Of a stretch of 36,136 bases of DNA, positions 1,952 to 35,748 are shown piece after piece. The stretch comes from a virus. The number at the start of each line of letters is the position of its first letter. Within the stretch, counting starts at the first letter, position 1. A program made the translations under genes and the position numbers. Below the pieces are notes generated by a model. That model saw only the letters and a list, made by a program, of their open reading frames with translations, was not told the DNA's origin and ran no database searches. The stretch spans positions 1-36,136 of the IMG/VR virus record IMGVR_UViG_3300050014_000810. One strand, 5' to 3'.

Positions 1952-3255
1952 CAGATCCTCCGGGTCGCACCGATAGGCAATAGTTCGACACTTTCGAGGT
2001 CGAAGTCCTGGCCGGTACTAGTCAGCTGGAAGGCGAAGTAGCGCGCGCGCAGCCCCTTGCCGAGGTTGATGCGGCTGCTCTTCATGTCCTTGACCTCCGC
2101 CTTGTAGATGTATTCCTTGTCGTCGCCGGTGATCAGCTTGAAGATGAACTCGCCTTCACCCCGGATACCGAGATAGGCAGCTTTGAACGCCGTGTAGCGC
2201 GAGCCCGCAAACTGTGCGAAACCCGAGATGATATCGGTGATGATAGGGGTGCCGTCGTCATCGGGCCCATCAAGTTCGAAAAGACCCTCTTTCGAGGCAC
2301 CCATGTATCGGAAGGATCGTCCCATTCTCGCGAAAGAATTGAAGTCATAATTAGTGTACTCGCTGATCGCGCCGGTGCGTGTGTTGATGGCCCAGGTCGT
2401 GAAACTGCCGCTCGGAGAGGCATAAGCGATGCTGAACTCGATGGTGTCGCTCAGCTCACCATGGTAGATGGCGGAGACCAGCTGCTCGTCGGTGATCTCG
2501 ATCCCGTCGTTCTCGACAACACGCCAGATCAGCGTGTGCCCCAGCACATCGGTGAGCGTGACACCGTCCGCCAACACGGGGCGACCGATGAACTGTCTGG
2601 AGACGTTGTCGGTGAGCCCGACGACATCGAAAATGCCGCCACCGAAGAAGGCGCTGAGGCTCGGGTGCAGCGCCAGCAGCTCGGCGATCTTGACCGAGTA
2701 GACGCCGGAGACCGTCAGGGCAGAGGAGACTTTGAGCTGGTCCAGAATGAACAGCGCGTGCGTGGCGGACACGACCTCGGTAATATTGAGCCGCTCGATG
2801 AGCCTCACAGTGAGGCCGTTGACCAGTGCATCGCTCAGCAGCGCCTGCCCGACCAGCGTCTGGTGGTAGCTGCTGCTGACAGACATCTGCGACGTCAGCT
2901 TGATCACGTCGTCGATCTGCGCACCGACGCCGTAGATGTACGAACTGGAATCCGTAAGATTGATCGACTCGGTGTTGAACAGCGAGAGGACCGCGACATA
3001 GGTGTCCGACAGACTCAGCGTTTCTGTCAGCCCCCAGATGATGGTCTGGATGTCCGCACTCACAGCCTCGGTGAACGCGACGATGTTCGACGTGTGATTG
3101 TAGGCAGGCGTCAAGGTCGATTGTCGACCATCCACGCTCACAGCCTCGGTGAACGCGACGATGTTCGACGTGTGATTGTAGGCATGCGTCAAGGTCGACG
3201 CGCTCACAGCCTCGGTGAACGCGACAACGTCGCTGGTATGTGTGTAGTCCGTCAC
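1951..3255 (-). CDS. Repeat-containing phage tail protein, 434 aa
   Basis: Starts at GTG 3255 with a strong GGAGGA site 7 nt upstream. Residues ~1-70 hold three near-identical copies of a unit reading roughly HTSxxVAFTEAVSA, followed by more diverged copies (SDTxxxxLS, TDxVS) to about residue 245. The C-terminal ~150 residues resemble a tail module common in podovirus-like phages: WAINTRTGAISEYTNYDF, then a segment on the surface signal of a sample (RSFRYMGASKEGLFELDG), then paired strands ending in LESVELLP. The same repeat reappears in the 996-residue protein at 11022-14012, 8 kb away. Function is probably a tail or fibre structural subunit; the exact position in the virion is not shown. 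Confidence 0.8.
   Translation of the reverse strand: MTDYTHTSDVVAFTEAVSASTLTHAYNHTSNIVAFTEAVSVDGRQSTLTPAYNHTSNIVAFTEAVSADIQTIIWGLTETLSLSDTYVAVLSLFNTESINLTDSSSYIYGVGAQIDDVIKLTSQMSVSSSYHQTLVGQALLSDALVNGLTVRLIERLNITEVVSATHALFILDQLKVSSALTVSGVYSVKIAELLALHPSLSAFFGGGIFDVVGLTDNVSRQFIGRPVLADGVTLTDVLGHTLIWRVVENDGIEITDEQLVSAIYHGELSDTIEFSIAYASPSGSFTTWAINTRTGAISEYTNYDFNSFARMGRSFRYMGASKEGLFELDGPDDDGTPIITDIISGFAQFAGSRYTAFKAAYLGIRGEGEFIFKLITGDDKEYIYKAEVKDMKSSRINLGKGLRARYFAFQLTSTGQDFDLESVELLPIGATRRI
3059..3225. repeat. In-gene DNA repeats encoding HTSxxVAFTEAVSA units
   Basis: A 48-bp block at 3059-3106 recurs identically at 3137-3184, and identity continues nearly unbroken for about 12 bp more. A shorter third copy (about 23 bp) begins at 3203. 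Spacings are 78 and 66 bp, both multiples of three. Near-identity at DNA level means recent duplication or active homogenisation, unlike the older, diverged copies further along the gene. Confidence 0.9.
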
Positions 3256-14526: not shown

Positions 14527-17500
14527 TTACCTTCCGAGATATTGCTGAAGAACAGGCCACGCGGCCATCGGAACATTCGTGGGCTTGCCTGTCGCCCTCG
14601 CCCTTTGTAGCTGATTCGCTTGTTTCATGTAAGCAGTCCCTAGGGTGTTGGACATCGGTGTCCCCTGATGCGCAGGGTCCAAATCATAGGCCCTAGCCTC
14701 CTCCAGCGCCGCCAGAACACCAGCCCTATCACGGTTCTGCATCGCCACCTTGTACTTCTGTTCGATGACCCCGGCGTGGAACTCGCGACCCTCCATCGCA
14801 CCGATGGCGGCGCGATTGGTTTCCTGATAGTTCGACTTCGCCCCCGTCTCGAAACCGAGCGCGGTGGCGAGCACATCACGCGCGTCGGCCGTGAGCGGCA
14901 TCTCCATGCCGTTTTTGTCCACATAGCGCGTTTTACCGTCATCTCCTTGGACCATGCGGAAGGCACCGACGAGGTTGCGCAACGACGTCGGCAGGAACTC
15001 CTGCATACCCTTCAGCGTCTGGCCGTTGGCGATGTCACGGCCGCCGACGACCCACTTCTGTAGAATACTGAACGGCGATCCCGCAGCCTTGGAGAGATAA
15101 TCCGGGTAGGCGTCCTCGAACTTACGGCGGTCCTCCAGCAGGCGCGTGCCGGGGAGAATGTCCGCGTCGCCGAGGTCGGCCGTGTCGACGCCCAGATAAC
15201 GCGGCAGGCCGCGGCTCAAGAGCGCGCCGACGTCGGGGCCGAACATGCTGCGTAAAAAGTGTTGATAATGCGCCTCGATGTCGTAGCCCTCTCCCTCGTC
15301 GAACGCTTCCGACACACGCGTCATCGCCCCCGCCGCCCAGCCGGCCCCCGGCAGACCGAGCGTGCCGGCGGTCAGGATGACGGCCGCGCCGTGCGCGAGA
15401 AGGAACCTGCGCGCCTCGACCTTCTCTTCCGGGTTCGCTGAAGAGATCGCGTGATGCACTTCGAGGTAGAGCTTCTCCAGCAGTTTGAGTTGATAACCGT
15501 GAAAAGCCGTGACGATCTTCGACATGGAACCAACGATACCTTGCTCGCCGAAAGCGCGCGGCTGGTTCGACGCCTCCCAAGGCATCATGGCTTCGTTCAG
15601 CGCATGAAGGGCATAATCATGAATCTGCTGGTCGTTCCAGCCCTTCTGCCGGCCGAGACGCTCGGCTGCCAGAGCGACGCTCAGGCGGCTGGCGGTCTCG
15701 CCGTAGACCGCCGTCATGTTGCCCCAGTGAAGGGCCTTGTTCAGCCACGTGTGCGCTGTCCCCTTGTCCAAGGTTCCGAAGCTTCCGACGTGCCCCATGC
15801 CAAGCTCGACCGCGCCGCTATTGATGATCCTGGTCAAGAATTTGATGGTGTGTTCCGCGACGCGGGCCTTACGGAGAATATCCGGTGTGAGCGCCCCGCT
15901 CACTCGATTCTCGCCGGTCGTCGCCATCGCACGAATGATCTTGAACGCATCGTTGGTCGAAGCGCCGATCGCCAGCGCCGAGTTCACCGCCCCATGTTTC
16001 TTGATGAACTCAGGCCACGCCAACAGCCCCACTTGGCTCATCTGCTCCAGCACGTAGCTGGGCGACATGCCTAGATAGAAGCCGTGGTTAATAGCCTGTG
16101 CCATGTCCCTGTACGTGTGCGGCACCCGCGCACCACTCTGACTGTCGCGCAGCATGATCTCGTCGACAGCTTTTTGTATTCCGAGACGCGTCTGATGATC
16201 GTAAGCCGGGTTGGACGCCGCCGCGAGACGCTGCTGACGCAAGCCGGCCAAGATGTCCATGCGGTAGCGTAGCGACGCCAGTTTAGCCACCGCGTTCGAT
16301 GTCACCGAGCTGGAAAACATCGCGTTGCGCGTCATGTCGGTGGAATAGCCTTGGATGCTCTGCTTTTCAGCCATCAGCTTCTTGATGGAATTGTCCGGCA
16401 GGACATCCATCGCCAAAGCGCGCATCTCGCGCAGGAACTGACCTTTCTGTTCGTCGGTCATCGCCTTGATCATCGGATGCGCCTCGGCGCTCGATACGAA
16501 TTCCTGCACGAACTTCGGTGCTACGTCCTGCATTTCCTGACTGTTGACGGCTCCGCTCGATATTTCCTTCTCTGGATCGGCATCGAGCAACCCTTTGGCT
16601 TTGGCCGCGTTGGCGATATCCAGCATGCCAGCGGCGTCCTGGCTGCTCTTGAAGCGCATGAATACGTGCCCCTGCGACGACAGCTGGTTCATCGAGACAT
16701 CGCCATAGTCCTTGGACATCATCTGCTGAAGCTCGCGGATCGCAGCCGGATCCGGCGCGCCGTTCGCGAGCGTCCTGATGTACATGGAAACGAAATTGTC
16801 TCCTGTACGCCCCAAGTGCACATAAGGCGCACGTTTATCCTCCGCGGCGGTGTGCTCGGCGAATTTCGCCTGCATGGATGCTAAAGGCGCGGTCTCGGTA
16901 CGGATGGCGGTCTTTCCGGCCTCATCCGCGCTGGACAGCGCGCCACTGCGCTCCTTCAGATAATCCCTGATGCCAGCCTCACGCTTCAGATACTCGGACT
17001 TCATGAACGCCGCGGCGCCATTGATGTCCTGGTGCAGGTCGTTATGTGCGAAATAGTCGCGGAACGGATCGTTCTCGAAGCCTTTGATGCCTTCCGTCTT
17101 GTAGACGGACTTCACCAATTGTTCCTGGAACCCTAGTTTGTGTCCGTAATTGTCCATCACGCCGGCAGCTAAACTATTACGCAGCAGCTGCTGTCCTGGG
17201 TTCGGCGTCGAGCCATCACGTGATTGCCCGAGCTTGTTCCAGTTGGCGCGCGTTTCCATATGGACCGCTTCGAGGTCCTTCACATTCGGTGCATTGTGCA
17301 GCCAAGAATTCTCGCCCCAGGTTTTTGTCGGATCGACGTTGAACTCACCCATCGCGCGGCGCACGCTGTCGACGGCGATACCCATCTTCTTGTCGCCGCG
17401 CGCGTACTTATCCAACGCCTGGATGGCACGCACCTTGGGCATGTCGATGCGGCCCTTCAACTGGCCCGAATAGACAGCATTGACGCGGTGCTGCTCGATG

Positions 17501-20500
17501 CCATCCAAAATGCCCTTCCAGAACCGACCCATGCTATGTTCCGACGACCACTGGTCCATGCCGGCGAGTAACTTGTCGCCTTTGAAGCCAGCGAAACCGT
17601 TCTTCACACCTTGCCAAGTCAGGTCACCGAGCTTGGCGGAGAACGACCCGACATAGCGTTGAGTGCGCCCCATCGTGTCTTCCATGCCGGGGACCGTCTT
17701 CACCAGGATACCCTGCGAGCCGCCGGTGAAGCCGCCCTTGGAGACAGTCTGCAAGCGCTGCTGGAACTGGTCATCCGGCTTGGCCGAGAGTCTCTCTCTG
17801 GAGTCCCGCAGGAACTTGGCCACGTCGCTGACCGAGTAAGTCTCGAACTTCTTAGCGAACTCGGTCAGCCCGAAATCGCGCAATCTGGTCGCGATGGCTT
17901 GTTTGAACTTGCCGACGATCGCCATGAGGGCGAGTTTCATCTTGCCGACCGTCGTGCTGGCCGAGGCGTGCGCGATCATTTCCTCGACCGCGACGACCTT
18001 GTCGCGCGCCGACAACGGGAAGCCTTTGGCCGGAAGATAAGATGCCACGCCCTCGCTATGCAGCGATCGATCCCACACGCCGAACTGTCTGGAGATCTTC
18101 TCGATATTGTCGACGCCGCCGGCACGATCGAAGATGTCGGCGATGCCATGCGCGTAAGAGTCCGAACCGTGTGGCCCAAGCAGCGCCTCTGTGGCCATAT
18201 GGCCCATGACCTCGTGCTTGAACGTGTCTTCGATGTCGGCGCGCGTGCGCGCCTTGTCCAGGATCGTATATGCATGACCGTTGTCGTAGAAGCCGGAGAG
18301 TTCTTGCGGATCGAGCCCTTGTTTCACTGCCTGTGAAAGGAACTCGGGAGGCATGTCACCGACCGTGTCGAGCAGATGCACACGCGATTGAGCATCCGGG
18401 TTTAGCCTCGATGCAAGTTCGTTATGATGTTGACGCAGAGCTTCTTGCGAAACGCTCGAGTTCATGCGCTCTTGGGTCATCGGCTCGACGGTCTTGAACA
18501 GCGGATGACCTGTCATCTGCGTCGCCGCGCGCAATTGGTCGGTGATGGGGAAGGAGTGAACGGTTCGCGTTGTCGGGACGTCTTTGGTCAGCTTACCACC
18601 GAGCAGCTCAGCCACGCCGGTGCTGCCATGCTCGACGACCGCCTGATTAAAATTCACACCCCTCTCTAGTGCGTCAGCAACCGCACGTAATTGTCGTGCA
18701 TACGAAACGCTAGGTGCGTGGGTTGCTAACTCGCGTACTTCCGCAGACGGGCGCCGTGGGCCTTCGTAGCTCCACCTATCATTACCGATAGGAAGCTCAT
18801 ATGGTTCGACTCTCGAGCCGAACTTCTTGACGAGCTTGTTGGCCTCGTTCACCATCATCTCGTTGTAGGCGACCTTCATCCCGCGTTCGCGTACAGCGTC
18901 ACCACCGTAGCGTGCGAAGTTCGTCTCGCCGGTGTCCCAGGTAATACGATCCTGCCCGGTGCGTACAGCCTCGTGGATCATGTGCTTGAGCATCAGGCTC
19001 ATCCACTGAGTGGTGTTCTTCAAGGGGGCTTCCGGCACGCCCTTGGTCGGGTCACTGGTGTCGCGGACATTTTGCTCGGCTTTATCGACGGCCACCTGAG
19101 CAGCGTAGGTGGTCTCCCTAAGACGGATGTATTCCTTACGCAGACTAACGAGTCCTTCTGAATCTGGACTAGTGCGGAGCTTTATGGCTTCACGAAGTTT
19201 ATCTTCGGCCCGGTTCTCTTCAGCTAATGCTTTCGTAAGAGGGTCTTTCGCAGCCTCCAGTTTCTTCTGCGCTTTCTCTATGGCTACAGGATCAGGAACG
19301 CGCTTTTGATTCTGCAATTCCCTTAAACGAGCAGCAGTCGGCATCAGCACCTCACGCTGATATTTGTCACGCGCTGCACTCAGTTCACTATAGGAAGCGT
19401 CATGTGCGTCATAATCCTGCCGCGCTCGTACCACATCCGGGCGCGAGGCATCGTACGCGTGCTGTTTACTTGCTATCCGCAGCCGTTCAACAGCAGCACC
19501 CAATTTGTCGGCTTCTGCGTAATATTCTCTGTCGAGTGTGTTAAATTTATCGAGGGCCGTATCATGCTCGGCCTGACGCTTAGCCAACTCGACAGGATCC
19601 GGCTTGAACCCGCGCGGACGATAACCTTCGTCTTGTGCCTTCTGATGCAGGTCGCTCTGAGCCTCACTGGAGTGCAGGATCTTCTCGCTATTCGCAGCGA
19701 CGCGGTTATCCATACGGTTGTGCCCGATGAAGTTAGTCTCGCCAGGCCAATGAACGTGTGTGAAATCATCTTCGGATTCCTTATACCGCTCCAGATAAGC
19801 TGGTTTTTCCTCCGGATCACTAAGGATATGCCTGAACAAAACCTCACGGTAGTTGGTGCCGCCAGGTGTTGTGTATGGTTCATAGTGCACATTCCCCTCG
19901 TCCAGCGTGACGGTGTGTACAGCAGGGAATGCTTCTTTGAAGTGCGCGGCGATCTGTGCCTTGGTGATCGGGCCTTTCTGGTCAGCCAACCAATTATGCG
20001 TGTGCGTCCAGTCGAGCTCTGTCTGCTTCGCACCGGCACTTTTCAGCGTCGCTTCCCATGCCGGGCCTGGCATCTTGTCTTGCTTGATGTTGTCTAGCGC
20101 GCGCAACGCCGTCGAGTAGCCGAGACCTTCAGGCAACGGCTCTTGTCGGCGCTGCGCGAGGATATCTTTGGGATCGAGTGCCGATCGAATATTATCGGGA
20201 TTCAAAACGGCAACCTGATCGCGACCGCGGCTCTCTGGTATCCCCCGCAAAATCACGGTGTCCAGCCCTTGTTGTCTGGCACGCGCGATTGCCGCGGAAG
20301 TCGCCCCTAAGCTGCCCCTGAAGTTAGGCTTGGGCTCTGGCTCACCCTCCGAAGCATAGAGCTTTTTGTTGCTCTCGTGTATCTGCATATCTTCTTGGAA
20401 ATTCTTGTCGAACATTCTCCCGAGACGCTCGGCGTCTTCTACCGACGTCGGACGGCCCGAATATTTCGTCGCAATCTTCCGCATCGACGCACGAAATTCT

Positions 20501-22707
20501 GGATCGAGAGGGAGACGCTGCACATCGAAAACCGCGGATTTGCCGGGGGTCACACGAACCGGGTAAACACGCGGCCCAGCCGCGTCTTCCTCCTTGTGAG
20601 AAAAAGATCCGGCGTAGCCTGCCGCTTCCTCCGGAGATGCAGAAAAAAACGAAACACCTTTCTCGCCCACGGCCGAGAATTTCCCTGCGGCGTTTACATC
20701 GAACTTATCGAACGAGATAGGGCTGGATGTGCCATGATATAACCGCCATTCTTCAGCATTCGGGTCTACACGTCCATAAGGGTAGATCGGAGATGGGCTA
20801 TTGGGCTCTGGTCGGCGCTGCGCGAGGATGTCATCGGGATTTTCCGGCATCTGCTGGCGTTGCTGCTGCCGAAACCGTTGAAAACCTGCGACCGTCTGTC
20901 GTATACGCGCGGCTTCCTGCGTCTCCGGCGTCAGAGGAGCATGCGGCGCCTGATCTTGCGGCGCCTGATCCGAAGGCCTCAAGCTTTCGAGGTCGGCTTG
21001 CGCGATGTCTTGGATACGCGCCTCGAGATTTTCATCGTTTTGTCCGGGTGCAGCTTCTGGGGCAACGGCATCCCGCGCGGCGTCGCCGCCTGGAACTCCG
21101 CCGCCAGCTCGGGCATTTCCGCGAACATCATCGCTCGCTGCGCTTGCGACTTGAACGGCATTGCGTGGATCTCCATCGATAAAAAAAGCGTTATATTGCT
21201 TATCTTCTTCGCTGGGGACTTTGAGGAATTTCTCACCCGGCCGCGTCGGCCGGTCAGCCTCGACGAGACGCATGTTCAACGCCGGATCAGCATGCAGCTC
21301 GCGCAATGCGTCATTGAACTGACGCGGCGTCACCGCCCCCTCTTCCTCATCCCGCTCGGCATTGACCTTGGCATACAGATCCTTCAGTTCGACCGGCCGG
21401 TTGAATCGGCCGGGCTGGTCGATCGAATCATTCTTGCCGCGCGTCAGATCGGAAACAGCCTCGACAATCTGCTGCTGAAGGGCGAGTCTGGGCGACGGTT
21501 CAGGAGTTACCCCGTCAGCCGGCCGCGGCCCTTGCTCTTGAGGGTGTACGGGCTGAGTTTCTTGATTGACGTCGCGCGGTCCGGCAGCCGCTTCCATGGC
21601 GGCGTCTCGGCTTCCAGCCGCTTCGCCAGCTCGGGATTGTTCTCCCGCGTCCACTGGCGCTGTGCCTCGCTCTTGTACAGTGGTTGGTTCTCCTGCCTGA
21701 GGTTCAGACGGTGCTGCTTCTGCCTGAGGTTCTGGTGGTGTACCCGGCACCTTCGATGCGGCATCGAGCGCGTTCGGGTCGCTGAGAATGCTCTCAGGCG
21801 CCTTGCGAAGGCCGAACAGGCCGCCCATGACGCCGCCGATCGCGCCGCTTTCCAGCGTCGACGAGACGATCGACTTCATCTTACCCATGGTCGGAATATC
21901 AGGCCGCCATGCCACATCGGCCGCTTTTTGCAGGCCGCCGCCGACCGCGCCGACCGCACCCATGCCGAGGCCGCCGTGAATGACGCGGCTGAGCAGCTTA
22001 CCTTCCGTACCCCCCGCGAGCATGCCAGCACCGTGACCAGGCATGATCGACTCGATCGCGCCGAGCGGCACGCCGAGTGCGAGCGCACGCGCCGCGTCCA
22101 GCTGTGACTCGCCGCCTGGCTGCTGCATGGATGATTCGTGCTGGGCAGCGATCGCGCTAGGCACCTGCACAGCCATGCCACCGAGAATACCCGCCGCGGT
22201 GCGGGCGCCGACAGCGGTCGCCGCCTCACCGGTCAGAGCGCCAGCGCCGCCCAAGAAGCTCGGTAGTGCCGCGCCGATGCGTGATAGACCAGCTGGAATC
22301 GCGACTTCAGGCGTCGCGTACATCGCCGCGCCGGCACCGACCAGCGCGGGCACCATCTGGCCGGCCGTGTAGGCAGCCTTGCTGGCAAAGGTGCCGGGAC
22401 TGTCGAACCAACCAGCTTGCTCGAGATCAGGACGGCCTTGCTCTTGCGCGCGCGCATTCAGATAGTCGGACAGACGTTGTGCGTCCATCCACGGCGGGAT
22501 CTTGCTGACGTCTTCGGGGGCAACAGCCGCCCGCTGAATGGTAGCGACAGTCCCGGCAAGCGCGCTGCTGAGCCCGATCGTGCCGACCTTCAGCCCCGCC
22601 CACGGCGCCCAGCCGCCATTCGGGGGCGGCGGTGTCAGCCCACCCGCCCGCATGTAATCCGCCGCGGTCGGCAGAGTGTTCGGATCGAAACTGCCCCAAC
22701 TCGCCAT
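14527..22707 (-). CDS. Giant polyvalent virion protein (ART-like, PGGTNYREVL-domain, metallopeptidase-like, LPD38-like), 2726 aa
   Basis: Start at ATG 22707, overlapping the previous stop (ATGA). The N-terminal ~300 residues hold hydrophobic Gly/Ala-rich stretches; 310-400 and 510-620 are low-complexity linkers. Residues ~650-845 match polyvalent ADP-ribosyltransferase domains (RLYHGTS, GVSFFSASPEEAAGYA). Residues ~885-1290 carry PGGTNYREVL, SEAQSDLHQKAQDEGY and, beyond a coiled-coil insert (~1040-1215), APLKNTTQWMSLMLKHMI, a module seen in many polyvalent proteins. A HEVMGH motif near 1498-1503, with an EE about 75 residues on, marks a metallopeptidase-like domain. Residues ~2270-2560 resemble LPD38. 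Such proteins are thought to enter the host with the DNA and counter its defences. No RNA-polymerase motifs were recognised. Confidence 0.88.
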   Translation of the reverse strand: MASWGSFDPNTLPTAADYMRAGGLTPPPPNGGWAPWAGLKVGTIGLSSALAGTVATIQRAAVAPEDVSKIPPWMDAQRLSDYLNARAQEQGRPDLEQAGWFDSPGTFASKAAYTAGQMVPALVGAGAAMYATPEVAIPAGLSRIGAALPSFLGGAGALTGEAATAVGARTAAGILGGMAVQVPSAIAAQHESSMQQPGGESQLDAARALALGVPLGAIESIMPGHGAGMLAGGTEGKLLSRVIHGGLGMGAVGAVGGGLQKAADVAWRPDIPTMGKMKSIVSSTLESGAIGGVMGGLFGLRKAPESILSDPNALDAASKVPGTPPEPQAEAAPSEPQAGEPTTVQERGTAPVDAGEQSRAGEAAGSRDAAMEAAAGPRDVNQETQPVHPQEQGPRPADGVTPEPSPRLALQQQIVEAVSDLTRGKNDSIDQPGRFNRPVELKDLYAKVNAERDEEEGAVTPRQFNDALRELHADPALNMRLVEADRPTRPGEKFLKVPSEEDKQYNAFFIDGDPRNAVQVASAASDDVRGNARAGGGVPGGDAARDAVAPEAAPGQNDENLEARIQDIAQADLESLRPSDQAPQDQAPHAPLTPETQEAARIRQTVAGFQRFRQQQRQQMPENPDDILAQRRPEPNSPSPIYPYGRVDPNAEEWRLYHGTSSPISFDKFDVNAAGKFSAVGEKGVSFFSASPEEAAGYAGSFSHKEEDAAGPRVYPVRVTPGKSAVFDVQRLPLDPEFRASMRKIATKYSGRPTSVEDAERLGRMFDKNFQEDMQIHESNKKLYASEGEPEPKPNFRGSLGATSAAIARARQQGLDTVILRGIPESRGRDQVAVLNPDNIRSALDPKDILAQRRQEPLPEGLGYSTALRALDNIKQDKMPGPAWEATLKSAGAKQTELDWTHTHNWLADQKGPITKAQIAAHFKEAFPAVHTVTLDEGNVHYEPYTTPGGTNYREVLFRHILSDPEEKPAYLERYKESEDDFTHVHWPGETNFIGHNRMDNRVAANSEKILHSSEAQSDLHQKAQDEGYRPRGFKPDPVELAKRQAEHDTALDKFNTLDREYYAEADKLGAAVERLRIASKQHAYDASRPDVVRARQDYDAHDASYSELSAARDKYQREVLMPTAARLRELQNQKRVPDPVAIEKAQKKLEAAKDPLTKALAEENRAEDKLREAIKLRTSPDSEGLVSLRKEYIRLRETTYAAQVAVDKAEQNVRDTSDPTKGVPEAPLKNTTQWMSLMLKHMIHEAVRTGQDRITWDTGETNFARYGGDAVRERGMKVAYNEMMVNEANKLVKKFGSRVEPYELPIGNDRWSYEGPRRPSAEVRELATHAPSVSYARQLRAVADALERGVNFNQAVVEHGSTGVAELLGGKLTKDVPTTRTVHSFPITDQLRAATQMTGHPLFKTVEPMTQERMNSSVSQEALRQHHNELASRLNPDAQSRVHLLDTVGDMPPEFLSQAVKQGLDPQELSGFYDNGHAYTILDKARTRADIEDTFKHEVMGHMATEALLGPHGSDSYAHGIADIFDRAGGVDNIEKISRQFGVWDRSLHSEGVASYLPAKGFPLSARDKVVAVEEMIAHASASTTVGKMKLALMAIVGKFKQAIATRLRDFGLTEFAKKFETYSVSDVAKFLRDSRERLSAKPDDQFQQRLQTVSKGGFTGGSQGILVKTVPGMEDTMGRTQRYVGSFSAKLGDLTWQGVKNGFAGFKGDKLLAGMDQWSSEHSMGRFWKGILDGIEQHRVNAVYSGQLKGRIDMPKVRAIQALDKYARGDKKMGIAVDSVRRAMGEFNVDPTKTWGENSWLHNAPNVKDLEAVHMETRANWNKLGQSRDGSTPNPGQQLLRNSLAAGVMDNYGHKLGFQEQLVKSVYKTEGIKGFENDPFRDYFAHNDLHQDINGAAAFMKSEYLKREAGIRDYLKERSGALSSADEAGKTAIRTETAPLASMQAKFAEHTAAEDKRAPYVHLGRTGDNFVSMYIRTLANGAPDPAAIRELQQMMSKDYGDVSMNQLSSQGHVFMRFKSSQDAAGMLDIANAAKAKGLLDADPEKEISSGAVNSQEMQDVAPKFVQEFVSSAEAHPMIKAMTDEQKGQFLREMRALAMDVLPDNSIKKLMAEKQSIQGYSTDMTRNAMFSSSVTSNAVAKLASLRYRMDILAGLRQQRLAAASNPAYDHQTRLGIQKAVDEIMLRDSQSGARVPHTYRDMAQAINHGFYLGMSPSYVLEQMSQVGLLAWPEFIKKHGAVNSALAIGASTNDAFKIIRAMATTGENRVSGALTPDILRKARVAEHTIKFLTRIINSGAVELGMGHVGSFGTLDKGTAHTWLNKALHWGNMTAVYGETASRLSVALAAERLGRQKGWNDQQIHDYALHALNEAMMPWEASNQPRAFGEQGIVGSMSKIVTAFHGYQLKLLEKLYLEVHHAISSANPEEKVEARRFLLAHGAAVILTAGTLGLPGAGWAAGAMTRVSEAFDEGEGYDIEAHYQHFLRSMFGPDVGALLSRGLPRYLGVDTADLGDADILPGTRLLEDRRKFEDAYPDYLSKAAGSPFSILQKWVVGGRDIANGQTLKGMQEFLPTSLRNLVGAFRMVQGDDGKTRYVDKNGMEMPLTADARDVLATALGFETGAKSNYQETNRAAIGAMEGREFHAGVIEQKYKVAMQNRDRAGVLAALEEARAYDLDPAHQGTPMSNTLGTAYMKQANQLQRARATGKPTNVPMAAWPVLQQYLGR
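20979..21161 (-). CDS. Nested out-of-frame small protein, KSxAQR family, 60 aa
   Basis: This lies wholly inside the giant gene, same strand, different frame. ATG at 21161 has GGAG 9 nt upstream. The product starts MPFKSQAQRAMMFAEMPELA, then ATP...LPQK, and ends in a basic tail. This matches a small phage protein family with the pattern MPFKSxAQRxxMFAxxPExAxxxxxxTPxxxxLPxK. The giant protein in the same stretch is low-complexity linker (about residues 515-575), so little would constrain that frame. Expression is unproven. See the second copy at 21507-21680. Confidence 0.5.
   Translation of the reverse strand: MPFKSQAQRAMMFAEMPELAAEFQAATPRGMPLPQKLHPDKTMKISRRVSKTSRKPTSKA
21507..21680 (-). CDS. 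Second nested KSxAQR-family ORF, ATG lost or CTG start, ~57 aa
   Basis: Also inside the giant gene and in the same alternative frame as the copy at 20979. It reads YKSEAQRQWTRENNPELAKR, then LEAETPPWKRLPDR and a basic tail. It aligns with the other copy at KS-AQR, PELA, TP and LP. Where that copy has ATG this one has CCA, but CTG follows at once (21678-21680), with AGGAG 9 nt upstream, the same spacing as in the other copy. An in-frame ATG exists at 21764 without a ribosome site. It may use CTG or may be a relic absorbed into the giant frame. Confidence 0.4.
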   Translation of the reverse strand: MYKSEAQRQWTRENNPELAKRLEAETPPWKRLPDRATSIKKLSPYTLKSKGRGRLTG

Positions 22708-23519
22708 CAACGCTGCTCGGTGTTTTGCATTTGCCTACCGGTGTAATTCCCGAGGATGTTCATCTTCATGAGCTCATCCAGCGCCTCAGTGTGTGCTCTA
22801 CTGGCAGCGAGCATATTCTTGCTGTGCTGAGTGGCGTTAATCTCGTTATTATCCAACAAGGCCTGCGAAGCCGCCGCCGAATTGTTGTACTCGAAGTTCG
22901 CTTTTCCGAGGAGCACCCGCGCCGCTTCCGGGACGCCGGCATGCGCAAGGTGAATCTCGTACAGCCGTATCGCCTGATCCGCGGTCAACCCGTTGATTAT
23001 CCGCGACTGCTGCTCAGGATTGACGCGTGGCTGCACCTTCGCGCCAGGCATGCCTACCGCCTGCGGATTATTCGCTGCGGCTTTTGCCTGTCCTACATCC
23101 GCGGCATGATCGGCGATGACCGCGGCCGGATGATCTGCATCCACAGGATAACCAGCGACATAGGAGCCGGCCGCATGTGCCGAAGGATTGAATGTTCCGG
23201 CCGATTTCGTCCAATCGAGAGATGGCGCATCCGGCGCGGGCGCCCCGGTCAAACCACCCAAAAAACTCGGAACGCCAGCGGCGACATACTTGCCTAATGC
23301 CACAGGTGCCGCAGCGAAGTCCTGAGCCGCCTGACCAACCGCCTGTATCGGACCAAGCACACCCGCACGCACGCCCTGGCCGATCTGCCGGGCAGGGTCT
23401 GCGAACCAGGTTTGTGGCGTGGCGACATTAAACGTCGGAGGCAGCGGCCCAGGTGGAGAAGAAGGAGGCGGTATTACACCGGTAGCCGGATCAAACGTCG
23501 GAAGTGGAGCGTCGACCAT
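22707..23519 (-). CDS. Hypothetical virion/ejection protein, 270 aa
   Basis: Start at ATG 23519 with AAGGGA 8 nt upstream; the longer frame to 23564 runs back into the adaptor gene. The N-terminal third is Pro/Gly/Ala-rich (PLPTFDPATGVIPPPSSPPG), the middle is Ala-rich, and the C-terminal third is helical (GLTADQAIRLYEIHLAHAGV, then SQALLDNNEINATQHSKN). It ends on the overlap with the giant gene. Position between the adaptor and the giant ejected protein suggests an internal virion or connector protein. I do not recognise the family. Confidence 0.7.
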   Translation of the reverse strand: MVDAPLPTFDPATGVIPPPSSPPGPLPPTFNVATPQTWFADPARQIGQGVRAGVLGPIQAVGQAAQDFAAAPVALGKYVAAGVPSFLGGLTGAPAPDAPSLDWTKSAGTFNPSAHAAGSYVAGYPVDADHPAAVIADHAADVGQAKAAANNPQAVGMPGAKVQPRVNPEQQSRIINGLTADQAIRLYEIHLAHAGVPEAARVLLGKANFEYNNSAAASQALLDNNEINATQHSKNMLAASRAHTEALDELMKMNILGNYTGRQMQNTEQR

Positions 23520-31364: not shown

Positions 31365-33806
31365 CTAGACAAAATGGTAGTTGGGAAGGTTCTGGGTGAG
31401 AGGCCGCTTGCCACGGCCGTCCCCGTCGCCGCCATGATAGCGCAGTTCCCGCTCCGTCCGCCGGTGAAAATACCTGCATAGGTAACCAAAGCTGTCGCCT
31501 GGATGCGAATACTGATTCTTTTCCGGGGCAATTCCTTTAATGTCGTCTTTCTTGGTGTCCATCGTGTAGCGCCAGCCGCCCTTGAGCGCCCGAATCAGTG
31601 TCGGGCACTCCTTGGCGTCGATTTGTAACGCCGCGCCACCCACCGTCAACCGCGTTGTGAAGTGCTCGATGGCGTCGAGACGCAGCGGCAGCCGGTTGTT
31701 GGTCTCGCAATGCACCATGAAGTGCTGCTTGAAGCGGTCGACAACCGTCTTTTCGTCCGTTTGCGTTCGATTGTTGGCCGCTGGATCCGCCGCGATGACG
31801 ATCATGCCAGGTACATGGCCGGGGATGTCCGGGAACCGGCGCCGCAGGTAAGGCTTGAGCTTCTCGCTGATCAGCCGGTCGGCGCCGTAGCCCGACTGCA
31901 CCAGCTCCCCCAGCACGTTGAGCCTGCCTTGCAGGTCCTCTTGCCCAAAGATGAGTGCCGAACCAGTTATGCCTGGATCGAGGCCGATAATAAGCGGTAA
32001 GTGCTTGTTATATCTAATGTCGCCGTTGGATATGTGGATGCTTGCCTTGAACGTCGGAACGACCGCCTGGCCGGAGATGCTGAAGCCCCACTCGGCCTCG
32101 ACGAACTGCTTGACCCAGGCCTCCGAATTGCCTGCCGCGAGGTTCAGATAATACTTGTTGGACCCGTCGCGCGGCGGCAGGTTAACTAGATTCTCAGCGT
32201 CCGGGTCAAACCCGCCAGGCTGGTGGAAATAGGTTATCGTCCGATTATCGTCCGGCATTCTCGGTGCATCGAGATTGGCCCTGGTCATTTTCCGGACCTT
32301 GGTCGCATCGTGCAGATAGTCGAACCACCAGCTATCCTCGGTGCTCGGGTTGGAAGACCCCCAGACACCGTAGTTGGTGGCGCCACCATCCTTGGGAGGC
32401 GGAAAACGCCCTGCCCGCGCGCTGATGGCCTCGAGGATCTTCTTCGGGATCTGCACGAACTCGTCGATCAGAACGAAAGTCACTTCGAGGGAAAGCACCC
32501 GCGCCACGTCGTCTTCGGTGTCCAGAGGACGAAACAGCACCTCACACTCGACGTCACCGAATCTAAGTGTGAAGATCTTGTTCGTGGCCTGCCACTTGCC
32601 GGCCTGCCCATCCTTGAACCAGTAGTTCCAGGATACTAATGTCGTATCGGTCAACTGAGGATTGGTATTCCTCACGATGACGGCGCGGGTGCGACGTATG
32701 CCGTCAGCCCAGGGCGCTTGCAGACTGGCCATGTAAGCCAACTTAAAGAAAATTCCGGTAGTCTTACCGGAGTTTCCAGTGACAAAGATTGTGTCATTGC
32801 AGCGCGCGACAAAAAATCCGGTCGAGGTCGAAAAGCAGTATTTCATCCCATTGATCAGGCCACCGACCGGCTCAATACACGAGATCCGGGTCGTGTCGGT
32901 CCGGATGGCCGCCTTATTTTTATGGTTGTCCGCCACACGAATCTGGACGGTGTACTGAGTCAACCATTCCGGGTGTTGTGAGTCGTAGACCGCTTTGATC
33001 GTTGCCCGGAACCCGCACGCGTGGGCTGCGAACTGGATCGCGTCGGCATGCCTCTTTACCGTCGAGTAGTAGCGCTTCTCGGCATGCTCGTTCAGTCCAT
33101 CCCAACGCAGACACTCGTCGAGCACAATCTCCAGCTGGCGTGTCGAGAGCCCCCAGACGAAGTTCAATGACTTGGAGGCCTCCGGCCACCGCAGCGTGAA
33201 CCGTGTCTCCGTCTCACGTTGAGCATAAGTGGTCTCCTTCCAAGGTATGCCGGCATCCCTCAGCAGCTCGCGCAGGCGCGTCTTCTTGTATTCCTTGCGG
33301 ACGACGATGAACTGCTGCTGGCCACGCTCCGGGATATGCCCGTCCGCGCTGAAGGCGATACGCATCCTGATCTCAGCTTCTCCCATCCGGACGTCGTCGC
33401 GAACAAGCGAGAAAGTCGTAGGGATAGTCCTCCTGGACGGATGAGCAGCGCATTCCGCCGCTGTCGCGACTTGCGAAACACCGCGATAGTCATTGTAGAG
33501 AACCTTGTGCTCAGGCGACAGCTCCATCTCCAGGGAGCCGCTATCGAACCGAATGAAGGGTGTCGTCGCGGGTAGGCATACGTACTCGGCCGGCTCGAAG
33601 AAGACCTCACCGTCTTTGTAGACCGCCACCAGATCGTCGGTCTGATAAGCGTCCATCCGCCGCCAGCCGGCCGGCGTCAGAAATTCACTGTCAGCCGGCA
33701 AGCAGCCCACCGGCCCTACGATCCAGTCGAAAAAAAGGTCGTGCGGCTTGTAGTCCTTGATGAACGCGTTGATCGTATCAGGCGGGACGTAGTCGATTAT
33801 GCTCAC
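31365..33806 (-). CDS. terL: Terminase large subunit with intein in Walker A, 813 aa (502 aa after splicing)
   Basis: Start at GTG 33806, overlapping the upstream stop (GTGA). The host protein is split at residue 34: IVGPVG, then an intein from Cys35 to Asn345, then SGKTTGIFFK. Joined, this gives the P-loop GPVGSGKT. Walker B (FVLIDE) lies near 444-449. The nuclease domain has the three acidic sites of the RNase-H fold: Asp610 in IGLDPG, Asp674 in AADP and Asp771 in HPGDS. It drives ATP-dependent packaging and cuts concatemers. Without splicing the ATPase site cannot form. Confidence 0.95.
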   Translation of the reverse strand: MSIIDYVPPDTINAFIKDYKPHDLFFDWIVGPVGCLPADSEFLTPAGWRRMDAYQTDDLVAVYKDGEVFFEPAEYVCLPATTPFIRFDSGSLEMELSPEHKVLYNDYRGVSQVATAAECAAHPSRRTIPTTFSLVRDDVRMGEAEIRMRIAFSADGHIPERGQQQFIVVRKEYKKTRLRELLRDAGIPWKETTYAQRETETRFTLRWPEASKSLNFVWGLSTRQLEIVLDECLRWDGLNEHAEKRYYSTVKRHADAIQFAAHACGFRATIKAVYDSQHPEWLTQYTVQIRVADNHKNKAAIRTDTTRISCIEPVGGLINGMKYCFSTSTGFFVARCNDTIFVTGNSGKTTGIFFKLAYMASLQAPWADGIRRTRAVIVRNTNPQLTDTTLVSWNYWFKDGQAGKWQATNKIFTLRFGDVECEVLFRPLDTEDDVARVLSLEVTFVLIDEFVQIPKKILEAISARAGRFPPPKDGGATNYGVWGSSNPSTEDSWWFDYLHDATKVRKMTRANLDAPRMPDDNRTITYFHQPGGFDPDAENLVNLPPRDGSNKYYLNLAAGNSEAWVKQFVEAEWGFSISGQAVVPTFKASIHISNGDIRYNKHLPLIIGLDPGITGSALIFGQEDLQGRLNVLGELVQSGYGADRLISEKLKPYLRRRFPDIPGHVPGMIVIAADPAANNRTQTDEKTVVDRFKQHFMVHCETNNRLPLRLDAIEHFTTRLTVGGAALQIDAKECPTLIRALKGGWRYTMDTKKDDIKGIAPEKNQYSHPGDSFGYLCRYFHRRTERELRYHGGDGDGRGKRPLTQNLPNYHFV
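32772..33704 (-). mobile_element. Intein with LAGLIDADG-like endonuclease region, 311 aa
   Basis: Residues 35-345 of the terminase frame. It starts CLPADSEFLTPAGW (Cys1, block A), has LSPEHKVLY (block B), and ends YCFSTSTGFFVARCND then TIFVTGN before Ser+1 (blocks F and G). The residue before the last Asn is Gly, not the usual His. Between these lie two short LAGLIDADG-like motifs (IRMRIAFSADGHI and IVLDECLRWDG) typical of dodecapeptide homing endonucleases; the DG acids are kept. The unit therefore looks able to splice and perhaps to home to empty alleles. Confidence 0.9.
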
Positions 33807-34027
33807 TTGTGCCGCCAGCCTTCCATCGTCTTGGCGCGGATCGCGTCGTCACGCACCTCGCGGTCAGAGGATTTCGCGGCCGCAGCGAGTTTTCCGGCCG
33901 GGATTTTCTTACCCTCCAGCACACCGAGCTCGCGATGCAGCTTGCCTTTCTTGCCACCCGGCTTAAAGGCTTTCTTCTTCTTCTTCTTCGCTGTTTTCGA
34001 TGGCGGCGGCATTCCTAGTCCAGCCAT
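33803..34027 (-). CDS. Lys-rich small protein between terminase genes, 74 aa
   Basis: ATG at 34027 with a GTGA overlap into the large terminase at its end. Residues 10-30 are extremely basic (SKTAKKKKKKAFKPGGKKGK), followed by an Ala-rich helix (AGKLAAAAKSSDREVRDD). Such a protein could bind DNA or RNA, and its place suggests a packaging accessory role. The Lys tract is a run of 'ttc'/'ctt' codons and may be prone to slippage. Confidence 0.6.
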   Translation of the reverse strand: MAGLGMPPPSKTAKKKKKKAFKPGGKKGKLHRELGVLEGKKIPAGKLAAAAKSSDREVRDDAIRAKTMEGWRHK

Positions 34028-34989: not shown

Positions 34990-35088
34990 CGGTTGATTGC
35001 ACGAGTCCACGCCCTACGGGGCGCGGTACGCGCACCACGCAAGTTACCGGTTGATTGCACGAGTCCACACCCTACGGGGCGTGGTACG
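34990..35088. repeat. Two copies of a 41-bp element with hairpin
   Basis: Copies at 34990-35030 and 35048-35088 differ at two bases. Each has the box CGGTTGATTGCACGAGT followed by an 8-bp hairpin with a TACG loop in plus reading. In plus RNA each copy has one A-C mismatch; in minus RNA both give full stems with a G-U pair. A diverged relative (box CGGTTGAT then a hairpin) lies at 35737-35777. Function unknown: protein site, RNA element or regulatory repeat. Confidence 0.8.
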
Positions 35089-35147: not shown

Positions 35148-35711
35148 ATGAGCGAACTCAATGCGCTTAACCATGTGTTCGTCACGGCGCGTAACCAAGG
35201 CGAATCCGACTTTCTCGCGATTGACGCCGTGATAGCGGCAGGAGGACTCCAGGACGTTGTGCGGCGCGAGTATATCTTGGGCCGCTTGGCCGCAAGTCTG
35301 GACATGGACCACGCCAACGCCGAGCAGGTTCTGGACATGAAGGGCGCCAACTCCAAAAGCGACGAACGCAGGACAGAGAGTCAAGAAAAAGCCTATGGCG
35401 CGTCGCGCACTGCCTGGAGCGCTCTAATCAAAAAAGCCGGGCTCGTCAGCACCGACAAGCGTGGTGGCGCCAACCAGAAGACTCCACCGGCCAAGCTGCC
35501 ACCGGCCAGCGTCAGTCTGGAGGTGATCCAGACTCCGCCGTGCGGGACACGGGAGCAAGTGCTCGGTTTTCTGCACACGATGGCAACTGTTCTCGGCAAG
35601 TTTGAGAGTCGAAACTCGAAAGTTCTGGATATCGAGACTCGTCCAATCATCGAAGACTTCGTGGTCGGAGTCAGACGCTTGTGCGTAGAACAAATGCAGA
35701 AAGCTGCATAA
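35148..35711 (+). CDS. Hypothetical early-region protein, 187 aa
   Basis: ATG at 35148 with GAAAGGA about 10 nt upstream, in the same context as the 53-aa gene (ACTGAAAGGAA). It reads MSELNALNHVFVTARNQGES, then FLAIDAVIAAGGLQDVVRRE and a region rich in Lys, Gln and Ala, a Pro-rich link (TPPAKLPPASV), and a helical end (GTREQVLGFLHTMATVLGKF). No motif is recognised. Helical ends joined by a Pro-rich link suggest two small domains. Possibly a regulator. Confidence 0.75.
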   Translation: MSELNALNHVFVTARNQGESDFLAIDAVIAAGGLQDVVRREYILGRLAASLDMDHANAEQVLDMKGANSKSDERRTESQEKAYGASRTAWSALIKKAGLVSTDKRGGANQKTPPAKLPPASVSLEVIQTPPCGTREQVLGFLHTMATVLGKFESRNSKVLDIETRPIIEDFVVGVRRLCVEQMQKAA

Positions 35712-35748
35712 ACACCAACACATCACAAGATGTTTACGGTTGATGCTA

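Follow-up and report, generated by a model that had tools for sequence, protein, structure and literature searches.

The gene for the terminase large subunit on the phage contig described here is interrupted in its P-loop by an insert of 311 amino acids which, judged from its sequence, is an intein, and very probably a homing LAGLIDADG intein that is spliced out to give an active ATPase. Its splice residues combine signatures of class 1 and class 3 inteins. By "the window" we mean the whole stretch of DNA analysed, 36,136 bases, which constitutes one IMG/VR virus record. The interrupted gene comprises the following features:

31365..33806, minus strand: ORF of the terminase large subunit precursor, 813 aa, GTG start
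33705..33806, minus strand: N-extein, 34 aa, ending in GPVG, the first half of Walker A
32772..33704, minus strand: intein, 311 aa, from Cys1 to Gly310-Asn311
31365..32771, minus strand: C-extein with Ser+1, starting with SGKT, the second half of Walker A; stop codon included
32772..32777, minus strand: C-terminal splice junction Gly310-Asn311, kept in 45 of 45 family members

The GTG start of the 813-aa ORF overlaps the stop of a 74-aa ORF just ahead of it (33803..34027). The extein matched two PHROG families, 979 and, with E 6e-25, PHROG 2 (terminase large subunit). Homologs of the extein were found in 75 viral contigs with 51-65% identity, and a protein of Pseudomonas phage Rollin is 45% identical to the window terminase. 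By this homology and by its Walker A motif the product is a terminase large subunit, of the podovirus-like type. The contig also encodes an N4-type major capsid protein and, according to PHROG matches, head-tail proteins. Near the N4-gp56-type capsid protein lies an ORF of 2727 aa (14527-22710, minus strand) for a giant probable virion protein, the C-terminal part of which resembles the PLxRFG tail-700 domain (NF032893, E 3e-54). Two near-identical repeats of about 39 bases, cggttgattgcacgagtccac[g/a]ccctacggggcg[c/t]ggtacg, each with an internal inverted repeat, are located at 34990-35028 and 35048-35086 in the gap ahead of the plus-strand ORF 35148-35711, and a hairpin-like stretch similar to them follows this ORF near 35738.

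The insert corresponds to residues 35-345 of the ORF and separates Walker A residues 4 and 5; its Cys1 codon lies at 33702-33704 and its Asn311 codon at 32772-32774. When it is removed computationally, an extein of 502 aa with a rebuilt GPVGSGKT is obtained. An earlier note, made from the sequence of this DNA, had given the same coordinates, intein length and spliced product, and re-reading of the ORF and the junction proved them exact. Its placing of the junction between GPVG and SGKT is borne out by intein-less terminases: the site could be read in 73 homologs (72 viral contigs and phage Rollin), 70 of which join the two halves directly in an uninterrupted GPxG-S[GA]K[TS]. At three empty sites (L059, L074 and L024) even the DNA resembles the window flanks at 26-27 of 30 bp. 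Thus, the insert shows the hallmarks of an intein: it is absent from orthologs, its flanks rejoin exactly, Asn311 is followed by Ser, and block B contains His66.

The remaining three of the 73 homologs are occupied at the same point. Two of them, L019 (64% identical) and L034 (44%), bear relatives of the window intein. The third, L006, the terminase of which is 63% identical, carries at the same GPVG|SGKT site an unrelated canonical intein of 291 aa (positions 2128-3000) with Asp at F:4, an HHN end and no evident LAGLIDADG motif; among the NCBIfam models, the C-terminal one scored above its cut-off with this intein and the N-terminal one below. The site is therefore found empty, with an intein of the window family or with the L006 intein, i.e. 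one site serves two intein families. We predict with high confidence that the window intein splices, since otherwise an ATPase essential for packaging would be left with a split P-loop, and since the reading frame is kept intact. The earlier note had concluded that packaging is conditional on splicing. The need for splicing is supported, but it is generic for any intein in an essential enzyme, and the idea of a regulation is not supported.

Inteins in the terminase P-loop have been described in mycobacteriophages, in which TerL is the commonest intein host protein; TerL1-a is inserted at GK|T and TerL1-b one residue away (PMC5050341). The window intein likewise interrupts the P-loop of a phage TerL, but it splits Walker A between residues 4 and 5, and its host belongs to another family of terminases. 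Among the matches listed, the relatives of the window intein from mycobacteriophages reside in a DNA primase gene and not in TerL. Further, the phage intein Bethlehem RDF, which has a penultimate Gly, splices completely, and exchange of this Gly by His slows its splicing (PMC5050341). Since both TerL P-loop inteins and an active Gly-Asn phage intein have been published, the main observation of the earlier note is of a known kind.

The structure of the window intein was modelled with AlphaFold2 from 16 family members (mean pLDDT 91.8). The model consists of a HINT splicing domain and a LAGLIDADG endonuclease, and dozens of inteins matched it at Z 13-23. The best match over the whole length was the TliVMA intein with its endonuclease (Foldseek E 1e-12; Z 23.2, 286 residues), and the best match to a mini-intein was the class 3 intein AceL NrdHF (6zgq; Z 18.2, 2.1 A, 144 residues), the next one reaching 15.5. 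The likeness to VMA inteins (TliVMA 7qsu, PI-SceI) extends over the entire fold including the endonuclease, while the sequence identity is only 8-15%. VMA inteins have P-loop ATPases as hosts and are canonical class 1 inteins. The endonuclease part resembles the folds of I-DmoI and PI-SceI and contains two motifs:

33339..33368, minus strand: LAGLIDADG motif 1 (block C), RMRIAFSADG, with the catalytic Asp121 and helix 109-121
33096..33125, minus strand: LAGLIDADG motif 2 (block E), region of VLDECLRWDG, with the catalytic Asp202 and helix 188-202

Both Asp121 and Asp202 are located at the ends of the predicted helices and, like Lys140, are present in 45 of 45 distinct family members; the two LAGLIDADG-like motifs mentioned previously are thus both found again, with invariant acids. 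According to sequence and model, the window intein holds a LAGLIDADG homing endonuclease with conserved catalytic acids.

By cutting empty P-loop alleles, such an endonuclease would carry the intein into them and also into terminases of quite a different kind. The only pair of near relatives that could be scored, L129 and L130, shows dN 0.018 and dS 0.53 in the endonuclease (dN/dS about 0.03), which indicates purifying selection in that pair. In the same pair dS is lower in the intein (0.30-0.53) than in the extein (1.14), the pattern that a more recent movement of the intein than of its host gene would leave. In addition, the identities of inteins and exteins to those of the window are incongruent: they amount to 59 and 37% in L100, 59 and 35% in L102, and 53 and 34% in L117, whereas in L034 the intein is 47% and the extein 61% identical. 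This indicates that the intein moved between unlike terminases.

A search at the protein level of 50,697 phage records revealed 158 with a relative of the window intein, mostly of full length and with 20-32% identity. The hosts include DNA primase/helicases, PhoH-like and RecD-like proteins, RtcB-like ligases, ribonucleotide reductase, a nicotinamide phosphoribosyltransferase and others. In P-loop ATPases the most frequent insertion point is the one seen in the window terminase (G|SGKT, G|TGKS, G|CGKT), and in some terminases the intein is found three residues earlier, at YGG|SAGGGKT. The RtcB-like RNA ligases (L154, L157, L158, L166 and L080) are split outside any P-loop at DIG|CGM, the +1 residue being the Cys of the CGM motif. 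A scan of genomes added three good relatives (L241-L243; L242 is probably identical with the 16,979-base contig L223) and three weak ones. The family is hard to detect with standard tools. The window intein matched no profile in Pfam and NCBIfam, and among 15 family members compared with these databases one showed a weak match to an intein N-terminal model and four matched LAGLIDADG_3 (PF14528), which was not found in the window copy. As a single sequence the window intein gave no match among PDB sequences and no confirmed match in viral contigs; the relatives emerged when alignments were used. With the family profile, 6zgq was the sole strong match among all PDB sequences (E 3e-7; 5e-8 for the splicing domain alone). 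Since the window copy is not seen by Pfam and NCBIfam and the family mostly is not either, the family is under-annotated in phage genomes.

The earlier note had overlooked Cys290 (block F position 4), which is another candidate for the nucleophile. The conservation of the splice residues was determined in 45 distinct full-length inteins collected by a scan with an endonuclease-only alignment, which is blind to both splice motifs. A larger scan had to be discarded for Cys290, because its search pattern contained YCF, and the count was redone with the endonuclease-only alignment. The residues in question are:

33702..33704, minus strand: Cys1, class 1 nucleophile position; Cys in 38 of 45, Pro in 7 of 45
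33507..33509, minus strand: His66, block B position 10 (SPEH, TxxH-like); 45 of 45
33501..33503, minus strand: Val68, block B position 12 (Trp in class 3); V, M, L or I in 45 of 45
32835..32837, minus strand: Cys290, block F position 4, class 3 nucleophile position; 45 of 45
32778..32780, minus strand: Thr309, block G position 5, class 3 signature Thr; Thr in 44 of 45, Ser in 1 of 45

Gly310 and Asn311 are each present in all 45 members, so the Gly before the final Asn, which had been noticed as a deviation from the usual His, is real but not peculiar to the window copy. The +1 residue was Ser in 43 and Cys in one of 44 relatives.

Class 3 inteins are defined by Trp at B:12, Cys at F:4, Thr at G:5 and Ser or Thr at +1 (PMC5222942). 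The corresponding residues, together with the block B His, are Trp67, Cys124, Thr143 and His65 in MchDnaB1 (PMC7664689), Met70, Cys124, Thr144 and His68 in AceL NrdHF (PMC7891396), and Val68, Cys290, Thr309 and His66 in the window intein. The terminal Asn follows this Cys at a spacing of 21 residues in the window intein and in MchDnaB1 (C124-N145), and of 22 in AceL NrdHF (C124-N146). The match of the family profile to 6zgq ends just before Cys124; the assignment of Cys290 to F:4 is therefore based on spacing, alignment and fold, and not on a residue-level superposition. Taken together, the window intein has the class 3 residues Cys(F:4), Thr(G:5) and Ser+1, but it also has a nucleophile at position 1, where class 1 inteins have Ser, Thr or Cys, and Val instead of Trp at B:12. 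As it thus departs from two defining features of class 3, a non-nucleophilic residue 1 and Trp at B:12, we do not file it as a class 3 intein.

Among splicing domains of known structure, that of AceL NrdHF comes nearest by profile and, when mini-inteins are compared, also by fold. This intein was proven to be of class 3 although it has MCT instead of WCT and lacks the histidines of blocks F and G (PMC7891396). The window intein is like it (6zgq; PMC7891396) in having an xCT triplet without Trp and no block G His, and AceL NrdHF stems from a probable phage contig, as does the window intein. It is, however, split, has Ala1, resides in a ribonucleotide reductase gene and has a GIY-YIG nuclease between its halves, whereas the window intein is contiguous, starts with Cys1 and contains a LAGLIDADG domain of its own. 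Two further inteins share the mixed signature. Tori and Perler are said to have described in 2011 MP-Catera Gp206 and Nocardioides TOPRIM as combining blocks F and G of the class 3 type with Ser1 or Cys1. Both reportedly carry Trp(B:12), which is absent from the window family.

The seven members with Pro1 (L034, L131, L137, L203, L207, L211 and L223) all reside in terminase P-loops, in open frames with intact terminase exteins, and all retain Cys(F:4) and Ser+1. They originate from six different metagenome samples, which together with the open terminase frames makes a sequencing error unlikely. In the phylogenetic tree they are found inside the terminase-type clade, and the members outside the Pro1 branches all have Cys1; some of the Pro1 members are placed with middling support. 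The best tree implies two changes between Cys1 and Pro1, but the AU test does not reject a tree in which all Pro1 members form one clade (p 0.197). We therefore claim one to three changes from Cys1 to Pro1. The earlier note had held that substitution of Cys1 in relatives would speak against an intein. Such a substitution does exist, but with splice partners and frames intact an alternative chemistry is likelier than a dead intein. Pro1 in seven relatives argues that the nucleophile at position 1 is dispensable in the family, and the intact Cys(F:4), Ser+1, frames and exteins make a class 3-like initiation more likely than a loss of splicing.

We propose that the translated intein would fold and that one of its cysteines would take over the acyl group of Gly(-1), which would cleave the Gly-Cys bond of the N junction; the acyl group would then be handed to Ser+1, and cyclisation of Asn311 and ligation would restore GPVGSGKT and thus yield an active 502-aa ATPase. 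By a slight preference we consider that Cys290 (F:4), aided by His66 and Thr309, would be required as in class 3 inteins, while Cys1 would be ancestral and contributing but replaceable, given the sister inteins with Pro1 at the same site. Against an obligatory Cys290 speaks that Cys1 is kept in 84-96% of the members, depending on the sample, which is above the expectation for an idle residue. Moreover, Trp(B:12) is absent, and among inteins generally only one residue is commoner than Cys at F:4, so that on its own this Cys does not prove class 3 (PMC4031507). The latter two points would equally suit a plain class 1 intein, in which Cys1 initiates, Cys290 assists as Asp(F:4) does elsewhere, and the Pro1 relatives represent a separately rewired lineage; the presence of Cys1 in the window intein and in all its nearest relatives (L019, L098, L099, L100, L102 and L117) also fits. 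However, Cys290 is better conserved than Cys1, the nearest solved splicing domain is of class 3, and position 1 is the only alignment column in which Pro1 and Cys1 members are cleanly distinguished, so that no set of compensating changes is obvious. Plain class 1 chemistry is thus a possibility that we take seriously, but we favour the obligatory Cys290 over it.

Two other explanations are improbable. Splicing could be a regulated switch gating DNA packaging, for example by redox control of the Cys1/Cys290 pair: with the insertion in the P-loop there is no ATPase without splicing, the two cysteines would be close to the N junction if Cys290 is F:4, and oxidative control is described for a mycobacterial DnaB intein (PMC6195587). 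But we found no regulatory element, 70 of 73 relatives manage without an intein, and the pair is missing from the Pro1 members, which makes a switch very unlikely. At least as unlikely is a dead or decaying insertion, with another terminase performing the packaging or the contig stemming from a defective phage. One decayed family member does exist, a stand-alone and apparently dead copy almost without extein (L114/L230 and L115/L229; IMGVR 3300027365_000272 and 3300010372_000044). In L230, part of which is also present in L229, Asn stands at position 1 instead of Cys, Gly at F:4 instead of Cys, and Cys at the end instead of Asn; the three residues are thus lost together. It resembles the intein pseudogene that was reportedly published as Arth_1007. 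This copy illustrates how loss manifests itself, while in the window the 813-aa frame is open, the splice and endonuclease residues are all intact, and the terminase part is that of a normal TerL.

In the open-access literature searched we found neither this family with its mixed signature nor the branch with Pro1 at the same site, and to that extent both are new. Class 3 inteins are held to be monophyletic, and loss of Cys1 in class 1 inteins is held to block splicing until second-site changes occur (PMC3196547, PMC4031507); a path from class 1 to class 3 via loss of Cys1 was even called implausible (PMC7664689). Returning to the obligatory Cys290, we tentatively suggest, with somewhat less confidence than for this chemistry itself, that a class 3-type mechanism arose inside a Cys1 family at the terminase P-loop, by one to three replacements of Cys1 by Pro and without Trp(B:12), and that the inteins with both Cys1 and Cys(F:4) are the living intermediate. 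If true, such an origin contradicts the published single-origin view as well as the view that an intein losing Cys1 cannot splice before additional mutations have occurred. The window family offers candidate natural intermediates between class 1 and class 3, and its always-kept internal Cys and sometimes-lost Cys1 may show one splicing type turning into another. At one and the same site, a natural series extends from the empty site over the canonical intein of L006 and the inteins with Cys1 and Cys(F:4) (window, L019, L098 and L099) to those with Pro1 and Cys(F:4) (L034 and L207). This series makes testable the disputed question (PMC3196547, PMC7664689) of how class 3 arose from class 1 while the essential host gene survived.
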